From: Bacillota bacterium
GTDB lineage: Bacteria > Armatimonadota > HRBIN16
Assembly (NCBI GenBank): GCA_023511455.1
Contig: JAIMBJ010000002.1
Location: 124,001 to 188,000 of the forward strand
Direction of reading: 5' to 3'
DNA length: 64,000 nt
Part shown: piece after piece, positions 43,296 through 45,893 of the stretch
How the letters are laid out: each line of letters begins with the position of its first letter
How positions within the stretch are numbered: the stretch's first letter is position 1
Made by a program: the position numbers and the translations under genes
Notes under the pieces: generated by a model
The model's database searches: none
What the model saw: the letters and a program-made list of their open reading frames with translations, nothing else
What the model was told of the DNA's origin: nothing

Positions 43296-44012
43296 TTATT
43301 CAACTGCGACGCCGGGCTGGAGTTCGATAATCTCCAGTCCCTCGATGTCGCGCGTTAGCGCACGCAACTCGTCCGGTGTGCCCGACAACGGCGGGAAGGT
43401 GCGGTAGTGCATGGGTATCACCTTTTTCACGCCCAGCAAGCGCACTGCTACCGCTGCCTCGCGCGGGTCCATGGTGAACAGCCCACCAATGGGCAGGAAA
43501 GCCAGCTCTGGCTGGTAAATCTGCCCGATGAGCTGCATGTCGCTGAACACCGCCGTGTCGCCCGCGTGATAAAAAGTGAAGCCGTCTTCGCACTTCACCA
43601 CAAAGCCCGCCGGGTCGCCCAAATACACAATCTGCCCACTTTCGCCCACATGAGCACTGGAGTGCACGGCATGTACCATCGTCACCTGAATGCTGCCCAC
43701 CTTGACCGTGCCGCCCTTGTTCATACCAATCGTGTTCTGCACGCCCTGTGCGCTCAGGTAGGTGGCGAGCTCGTAAATGGCGACCACCTGCGGCTGGAAC
43801 TGTTTGGCTAGAGCAACGGCATCGCCGATATGGTCGCCATGTCCGTGTGTCAGGAGCAGCGCGTCCAGTTTGGGCAGCTGCCTCGCCGATTCGGGGCAAA
43901 GCGGGTTACCCAGCCAGGGGTCTATAGCAACGTGCGTGCCGCCGGGCGTTCGGATGAAGAAGCCCGAGTGTCCCAGCCATGTAACCTGCAATCCGGGATG
44001 AATCGTTGCCAT
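43296..44012 (-). CDS. UPF0173 metal-dependent hydrolase (MBL fold)
   Basis: 238 residues. T-W-L-G-H-S-G-F-F-I near residue 10, the zinc motif T-H-G-H-G-D-H-I-G-D near 57, and downstream H-A-V-H-S-S, Y-H-A-G-D-T-A-V-F-S-D and P-M-H-Y-R-T-F-P match the UPF0173 family. Its exact substrate is unknown. AAGGAGGT precedes ATG 44012; an earlier in-frame ATG at 44033 is not supported by homology. Adjacent to the repeat cluster beside dnaA. Confidence 0.9.
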   Translation of the reverse strand: MATIHPGLQVTWLGHSGFFIRTPGGTHVAIDPWLGNPLCPESARQLPKLDALLLTHGHGDHIGDAVALAKQFQPQVVAIYELATYLSAQGVQNTIGMNKGGTVKVGSIQVTMVHAVHSSAHVGESGQIVYLGDPAGFVVKCEDGFTFYHAGDTAVFSDMQLIGQIYQPELAFLPIGGLFTMDPREAAVAVRLLGVKKVIPMHYRTFPPLSGTPDELRALTRDIEGLEIIELQPGVAVE

Positions 44013-44483
44013 CGGGTTCACCTCCTTGCTCAACTGAGATAGTTATCCTTTCGGGCGCAAGCCTCCTGCTGCCGGACAATGCAGGCAACTGAATCCTGTC
44101 TTCCACAATGTGAATGCATACTCTCCCCTTATATTAATAATGTACTTGTTGAAATTGTTGAAAACTTGGTATGCATTTCCCGCATTGCCAACACATTTTG
44201 TTGATTTTAACCTCCAATAAGTCGCTTGACAGGTATTGAATGTCACTCTATCATCGTTTTTAATCTATATGGTTTCAACTTAGATAGCAAATGTTTCAAC
44301 AATGAAATGTTGAAAACTCTGTTGAAAACCTGTACACATTGTTGATACCATTGCAAGATAGCCTCCAAGTGAGCAAGTTTTGCACAAAGTTTTGAACAAT
44401 GAAAACGGGTTTTCAACAATTTCAGAGGAGTTTTCAACAAAGTTTTGAACATTTCCAGCAAATGTTTCAACAATGACCAGTCT
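44013..44483. other. Putative chromosomal replication origin (oriC) beside dnaA
   Basis: 471 bases without a gene, visibly A+T-rich compared with its neighbours. It contains nine copies of GTTGAAA/TTTCAAC between 44148 and 44471: 44148, 44157, 44273, 44294, 44309, 44321, 44411, 44432 and 44465. Several extend to TGTTGAAAAC. Two related GTTTTGAACA sites lie at 44389-44398 and 44442-44451. A standard-like DnaA box TTTTGCACA is at 44378-44386. The cluster sits immediately 3' of dnaA, a common place for oriC. Its consensus TTTTCAACA differs from the E. coli DnaA box TTATCCACA at two positions. Confidence 0.65.
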
Positions 44484-45893
44484 TTAAGCACCGAGTACCG
44501 TGTTCAAATCGTAGATGATGCTGGTCAGCTCTTTGTCCTTGTTCAGGCTGGTCTTCACGCGGTTATAGGCGTGGAGCACCGTAGAGTGATTTTTACCAAA
44601 CATCTGTCCAATCTGCTGAAGCGGCAGCTGCGCCCTCTCCCGAAGCAGGTACATCGCTATCTGCCGCGCCATCAGCACCTCGCGGCTGCGCTGGTCGCCC
44701 AGGATGTCCTGCGTGGTCAGTCCGAACCGCTGGCACACCGCCTGCAGCACTGCCTGCTCGGTGGGCACGGTATGCACCTGCTTCTCGTCCACATAGTGGC
44801 GTGCCAGCACTTCGCTGGCGAGCTGCAGTGTGATGGGCTTGCCATGCACGGAGGCTCGGGCAGCGATGGAAATCAAAACCCCCTCCAGGGTGCGCACGTT
44901 GCCCTCCACCGCGTAGGCGATGTGGTAAATAACCTGGTCGGGAACCTGAATCCGCTCTATTTGTGCACGTTTTTGCAAAATAGCTACACGGGTTTCAAAT
45001 TCGGGCGGCGCGATGTCCGCGATCAGCCCCGCCTCGAAGCGGGAGCGCAGCCGGTCGTCCATCGCGTGCAACTCGCGCGGGGGGCGGTCGCTGGCGAACA
45101 CCACCTGCCTGCCCATCTGGTAGAGGGTGTTGAAGGTGTGGAAGAACTCCTCTTTAGTGTGTTCCTTGCCCGCGATGAACTGGATATCGTCCACCAGCCA
45201 CACGTCCACGTTGCGGTACTTCTGGCGGAAGGCATCGATACGCTGTTCGCGCAGGGCAGTGATGTATTGTTGGGCAAAGGTCTCGCCGGAAAGGTAAGCC
45301 ACGCGCAGGCGCGGATGCGTCTGCAGCACGTAGTGCCCGATGGCGTGCATCAGATGCGTCTTGCCCAGACCGGCTCCGCCGTAGATGAACAGGGGGTTGT
45401 AGCTCTGCCCCGGCGCGCGCGCCACCGACATCGCCCCCGCCTGGGCGAGCCGGTTCGAGTTGCCCACCACGAAGTTTTCAAAGGTGTATTTGGGGTTCAA
45501 GACCGGTTTCTCAATGGGAACAGGTTCCGGCTCCAGTGAGAGGGTAACCGGCTGCGTGCCAGGTGCCGCCTCCTCTACGGGCGCTTCGCCGAGCACCGGA
45601 CGTTTGTCAGGGGGCAGGTGGACGATGAAGACCTCTATCGCCTTACCCAGATGCTGGGAGAGCACCTCGCGCACCAGGTTGCCGTAGCGTTTGGTCACCC
45701 ACTCGCAGGCGAAGGGGCTGGGCGCGCCGAGCGTCACCCGTTCCCCGTCGAAGGAGACGGGCTTCATGCTTTTGAACCACGATTCGAAAGAGGGCTTGTT
45801 CACGCGGTTTGCCAGGGTGTGCATGGCACGGTCCCACGCACGGCGTAGCGCCAGCGTGTTTTCGTCCTCGCCCAGGTGCAGCTGGTCGTCCAC
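44484..45893 (-). CDS. dnaA: Chromosomal replication initiator DnaA
   Basis: 469 residues, full length. Domain I occupies ~15-90, a short Pro/Glu-rich linker ~105-135, the AAA+ domain ~140-360 with Walker A G-G-A-G-L-G-K-T-H and Walker B V-W-L-V-D-D-I-Q-F, sensor and R-S-R-F arginine region after it. Domain IV ends with F-G-K-N-H-S-T-V-L-H-A-Y-N-R-V; the usual G-R-D-H-T/S-T-V signature has D replaced by N. Start is GTG with AGGAGG upstream. A strong promoter lies 36-64 nt upstream. dnaN is not adjacent. Confidence 0.95.
   Translation of the reverse strand: MDDQLHLGEDENTLALRRAWDRAMHTLANRVNKPSFESWFKSMKPVSFDGERVTLGAPSPFACEWVTKRYGNLVREVLSQHLGKAIEVFIVHLPPDKRPVLGEAPVEEAAPGTQPVTLSLEPEPVPIEKPVLNPKYTFENFVVGNSNRLAQAGAMSVARAPGQSYNPLFIYGGAGLGKTHLMHAIGHYVLQTHPRLRVAYLSGETFAQQYITALREQRIDAFRQKYRNVDVWLVDDIQFIAGKEHTKEEFFHTFNTLYQMGRQVVFASDRPPRELHAMDDRLRSRFEAGLIADIAPPEFETRVAILQKRAQIERIQVPDQVIYHIAYAVEGNVRTLEGVLISIAARASVHGKPITLQLASEVLARHYVDEKQVHTVPTEQAVLQAVCQRFGLTTQDILGDQRSREVLMARQIAMYLLRERAQLPLQQIGQMFGKNHSTVLHAYNRVKTSLNKDKELTSIIYDLNTVLGA

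Follow-up and report, generated by a model that had tools for sequence, protein, structure and literature searches.

An array of about 13 nine-base repeats, situated just 3' of dnaA, almost certainly serves as the origin of chromosome replication (oriC) in this Armatimonadota bacterium, as judged from its sequence and its conservation in related genomes. Very probably this oriC is built from a lineage-specific DnaA box, WTTTSAACA, in which C at position 6 has given way to A, most likely by co-evolution with the DnaA recognition helix (D433N and T435S). The window, i.e. the whole 64-kb stretch of DNA that was analyzed, belongs to a 275-kb contig; the genome (genus HRBIN16 type, Armatimonadota) measures 3.85 Mb in all.

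A conserved repeat array beside dnaA

The original prediction described nine copies of GTTGAAA/TTTCAAC within ~325 A+T-rich bases beside dnaA. All nine were re-found (44148, 44157, 44273, 44294, 44309, 44321, 44411, 44432, and 44465), far above the chance expectation (mean 0.26, maximum 3, in 2000 dinucleotide shuffles of 44034-44483). Five of them are complete copies of TTTTCAACA (TGTTGAAAAC); outside the cluster, the window holds five further GTTGAAA copies and no exact TTTTCAACA. The G+C content of the repeat stretch is 37%, against 61% for the window. The lone box TTTTGCACA that had also been described was found at 44378-44386. The full set was undercounted, however: because position 5 is free to be C or G, TTTTGAACA (44390 and 44443) and GTATCAACA (44340) join the same box set (Table 1). 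Co-oriented boxes are spaced by 12 or 20-21 bp. TTATCCACA is absent from the window.

Table 1. Features of the dnaA-proximal region (window coordinates).
Feature	Position	Strand	Basis or remark
Box-like GCATTCACA, C at position 6, past the AT-rich element, location conserved; most relatives carry TCATTCACA or a close variant	44109..44117	-	alignment
AT-rich element AGTACATTATTAATATAAGGGGAG, conserved; candidate unwinding element	44122..44146	-	alignment; function predicted
DnaA-box array (putative oriC), ~13 boxes WTTTSAACA, both orientations	44147..44473	.	repeat count, conservation
Abutting tandem co-oriented pair TTTTCAACA-ATTTCAACA, facing the AT-rich element 44122-44146; near-invariant, seven species	44147..44164	-	
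AT-rich spacer between array halves, sequence poorly conserved; possible alternative unwinding region	44165..44271	.	function predicted
Boxes GTTTCAACT (44272) and GTTTCAACA (44293)	44272..44301	+	
Boxes TTTTCAACA (44308), TTTTCAACA (44320), and GTATCAACA (44340)	44308..44348	-	
Box TTTTGCACA	44378..44386	+	
Co-oriented boxes 44390 (TTTTGAACA), 44410, 44431, 44443 (TTTTGAACA), and 44464 (GTTTCAACA)	44390..44472	+	
dnaA, 469 aa, single copy in genome	44484..45893	-	recognition helix GKNHSTVLHA

The repeat stretch is flanked by the dnaA stop codon on one side and by an unrelated hydrolase gene (43296-44033) on the other. Lying on the stop-codon side, the cluster is not the dnaA promoter. A single ORF spans it (44243-44491, minus strand, 82 aa), a mechanical ORF call, and a structured RNA at the locus was rejected, as no Rfam match came near the gathering score. 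Array position, orientation, and spacing are kept in eight species of the genus, while the DNA between the boxes drifts in the alignment. The array was present in all seven relatives with an assembled dnaA 3' flank, bearing out the repeat conservation that the original prediction had named as a test. Identity reached 98.4% in box columns versus 83.1% in non-box columns, and the fraction of invariant columns was 92% versus 46%. Position 5 was the exception within the box, with 81.8% identity and variation resembling that of the spacers.

A consensus was derived from 96 boxes of the eight species, position 5 being left free and no more than a single mismatch being allowed elsewhere, a set that is not affected by the double-counted genomes mentioned below. 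Position 1 was T or A (67 and 23 boxes), positions 2-4 TTT, position 5 C or G (65 and 29), position 6 A or C (92 and 4), and positions 7-9 ACA. The classical DnaA box is TTWTNCACA, with position 5 free (PMC5043019, PMC7561715). Compared with it, TTW-T and ACA are essentially unchanged, position 5 is C or G, and position 1 is T or A, whereas C at position 6 is not retained. As T at position 3 already fits the classical consensus, the box departs from TTWTNCACA essentially at position 6 alone, and since the position known to be free varies here too, the pattern of constraint matches a DnaA box whose C6 is replaced by A. That the repeat is related to the classical box yet differs from it was thus anticipated correctly; what had been missed is that the difference essentially concerns position 6 only and that DnaA carries changes in its recognition helix as well. 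At site 44378, the window and one relative (G003) carry TTTTGCACA, two relatives TTTTCCACA, and four TTTTCAACA; base 6 has thus switched between species at one and the same homologous site.

Repeats of this kind need not belong to an origin. Inverted or direct repeats conserved near genes can act as operators, here of another DNA-binding protein controlling the neighbor gene. We consider this very improbable: the array comprises 13 sites in both orientations past the dnaA stop codon, and its per-position variability, including the free position 5, fits a DnaA box. The hydrolase gene is missing at the relatives' loci, where the far-side gene varies by species, which argues against an operator for that gene.

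Evidence for origin function and opening

The tandem-box pattern TTTTSAACA-N(0-40)-TTTTSAACA was searched in five genomes of the genus; in four of them it matched this locus alone, in the fifth also one additional site, and a reversed-pattern control gave zero matches. On its own 275-kb contig, the cumulative GC-skew minimum (171853, contig coordinates) lies 3.4 kb from the cluster (168147-168473). Four-fold-site skew, corrected for gene strand, averages -0.11 across the 128 kb to the left of the cluster; to its right, the two nearest 20-kb blocks give +0.06 and +0.07, and the values beyond are about zero. Sampled stretches of two relatives (G003 and G005) gave noisy skew with no clear inflection at the cluster. 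GC skew, proposed beforehand as a check, therefore bore out the locus on its own contig, with a minimum 3.4 kb off, and not in the sampled stretches of the relatives; as the switch is seen in one and not in the others, we regard skew as supportive but not decisive. Together with the repeat conservation in relatives, the own-contig minimum supports the proposal of an oriC with a lineage-specific DnaA-box variant. A perfect parS occurs once in each of five genomes; in G003 it shares the contig of the cluster at a distance of 83.5 kb, and in the remainder it lies on other contigs.

The array could also be a site for DnaA titration or regulation (datA or DARS like), with oriC located elsewhere. 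Compatible with this are the skew of the two relatives, which does not indicate the locus, and the position of dnaN on a contig other than that of the cluster. In Fimbriimonas, dnaN is likewise unlinked, and the origin was not locatable with TTATCCACA, which yielded only scattered sites (PMC4072686). Yet four of the five genomes lack a second tandem-box cluster, and the abutting box pair has a conserved AT-rich element attached to it, so a titrating or regulatory array with oriC elsewhere appears highly unlikely.

For the locus as an origin, we infer the following course of events. DnaA would bind the ~13 WTTTSAACA boxes just 3' of its own gene, and their co-orientation at 12 or 20-21 bp would allow head-to-tail assembly of DnaA-ATP. 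The abutting pair (44147-44164) may then steer DnaA onto the adjoining AT-rich element, leading to opening and helicase loading, and thereby to initiation at this putative site. That element, near-invariant in the genus, is the candidate unwinding site. The arrangement resembles the basal unwinding system of B. subtilis, which consists of DnaA-box 6/7 and DnaA-trios (PMC6669920, PMC8287927), in that a co-oriented tandem pair adjoins a conserved AT-rich element, here and in relatives. It differs in that no DnaA-trio array stands out above chance. The criterion asks for three or more DnaA-trios no farther than 16 bp from a box; three T-centered triplets were found in the window and are not kept in most relatives, and the signal did not exceed that of shuffles (0.20 against 0.39). 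A DnaA-trio module was therefore set aside.

Recognition helix and base 6 across lineages

The DnaA of the window scores 412 bits against B. subtilis DnaA (8BTG). The genus helix reads GKNHSTVLHA, as opposed to GRDHTTVLHA in most DnaA proteins, corresponding to R432K, D433N, and T435S (E. coli numbering), and the helix-turn-helix turn is one residue shorter than in B. subtilis DnaA. Base-contacting residues of DnaA comprise 399, 423, 432-435, and 438-439 (PMC5043019). D433 is highly conserved, and its contact has been assigned to position 7, not 6 (PMC8235120), which counts against a link with base 6. Comparison of boxes and helices suggests that base 6 and the DnaA helix changed together, with D433N and T435S in this genus. 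Across 291 genomes of the phylum, DnaA matches with N433 and S or T at 435 were confined to genus HRBIN16 type; outside the genus, three hits to this D433N pattern were dismissed as chance matches that are not DnaA. As the pattern demanded S or T at 435, it missed an N433-A435 lineage (family f5), which was found later. A scan of species genomes revealed N433 DnaA in many phyla.

Within Armatimonadota, boxes accompanying D433 are mostly of the classical kind (55 C6 and 11 A6), and their A:C ratio of 11:55 differs from the 9:5 at the phylum's two N433 loci outside the genus (Fisher p = 0.0007, with non-independent sites). A second N433 lineage of the phylum (G013, helix GGRNHATVVHA) has A6 boxes, its listed sites being TTATCAACA (twice), CTATCAACA, TTGTGAACA, and TTTTGAACA, and a third (G229, KNHA) has a mixture of A6 and C6, as do N433 Dadabacteria (KNHS). 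In one Clostridia order, N433 was accompanied by 11 A and no C (three genomes), versus 94:92 with D433 (30 genomes; Fisher p = 0.0009). Patescibacteria with N433 and S or A at 435 showed 8 A : 1 C (L256) and 7:4 (L257). The combination of N433 with either S or A at residue 435 is usually accompanied by A6. The p-values overstate the evidence, since neither the sites of one genome nor closely related genomes count as independent; the 433/435 grouping was picked after the data had been seen, and the total of 108:9 counts L111/L010 and L121/L006 twice, each pair apparently being one genome.

An explanation of A6 by D433N alone was rejected, because several N433 lineages retain C6. Among them are Corynebacterium (L065), with 9 C : 1 A, Bradymonadales (L096), whose densest stretch has 17 C : 2 A, and Oscillospiraceae (L114), with 6:1. 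The shortened helix-turn-helix turn was rejected as a cause as well, because L031 and L114 share it and have C6 boxes. For AT-rich genomes, four-base and 8-kb box counts were disregarded, because they carry no information unless corrected for background. Four loci with N433, T435, and R432 (L078, L081, L097, and L106) have A6 boxes only, in small numbers, so residue 435 is not the sole determinant. We tentatively propose, at somewhat short of even confidence, that residues 433 and 435 together largely set base 6: D433N together with S or A as residue 435 would shift the preferred base from C to A. Such a shift would have occurred separately in two or more Armatimonadota lineages and in the Clostridia order, with the entire origin rewritten to match.

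At a genuine origin, C6 could instead have become A6 by drift or by an A+T bias that DnaA tolerates, independently of D433N and T435S. The mixture of A6 and C6 in many D433 bacteria (such as the 94:92 of the Clostridia order) and in Mollicutes (PMC3322544) speaks for such tolerance, as do the N433 lineages that retain C6. Set against this are the difference in base 6 between D433 and N433 Armatimonadota and the near-fixation of A6 in the genus while position 5 stays C or G, a pattern that A+T bias does not explain. We regard drift as a real possibility, clearly below an even chance.

The survey also yielded observations of separate interest. In the Bradymonadales genome DLM2.Bin98 (L096), with N433 and C6 retained, TTATGCACAG occurs at least 12 times in a dense cluster situated ~1.3 kb 3' of dnaA. 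In Patescibacteria UBA2773 (L087/L256), 12 copies of a parS-like core (GTTTCACGTGA/TCACGTGAAAC) crowd together near dnaA and may form a very dense centromere array. Two Armatimonadota (L016 in G028 and L021 in G014) carry Ala or Thr at the D433 position (GGKAHSTVLY and GGKTHSTVIY) and have no box cluster beside dnaA. In a single-contig genome, the dnaA match lies in three frames (G029:C1:1351907-1353432), reflecting a frameshift, an insertion, or a sequencing error.

Relation to known boxes and significance

The locus shares with the E. coli and B. subtilis oriC (R-type TTWTNCACA) a box cluster in AT-rich intergenic DNA beside dnaA, a free position 5, and a fixed ACA at positions 7-9. In contrast to those origins, it has A6 in 92 of 96 boxes, lacks TTATCCACA in the window, and is unlinked to dnaN. 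The Mollicutes box, TT(A/T)TC(C/A)ACA, likewise allows A at position 6, and TTTTCAACA has been reported near dnaA in phytoplasmas (review PMC3322544); A6 is therefore a base already known to be tolerated. In Mollicutes, however, A and C are mixed and the cluster evidence is weak, whereas here A is near-fixed and accompanied by matching DnaA changes. Epsilonproteobacteria offer the parallel of a group-specific box (core TTCAC) alongside changes in the recognition helix (helix 5, altered at 435, 438, and 439; PMC5043019). There, T5 is fixed and C6 kept, while here position 6 has changed and the altered residues include 433. What is new is the near-fixation of A6 through a whole origin, genus-wide, together with substitutions in the corresponding helix of DnaA.

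Armatimonadota origins are hard to locate with the standard box, and the A6 box provides a motif with which those of this lineage can be searched for. Origin finders built on C6 would overlook such origins. If the putative link between residues 433/435 and base 6 is causal, nature would have run a specificity swap several times on the most conserved bacterial initiator, and the recognition code between initiator and site would be testable with few mutants.
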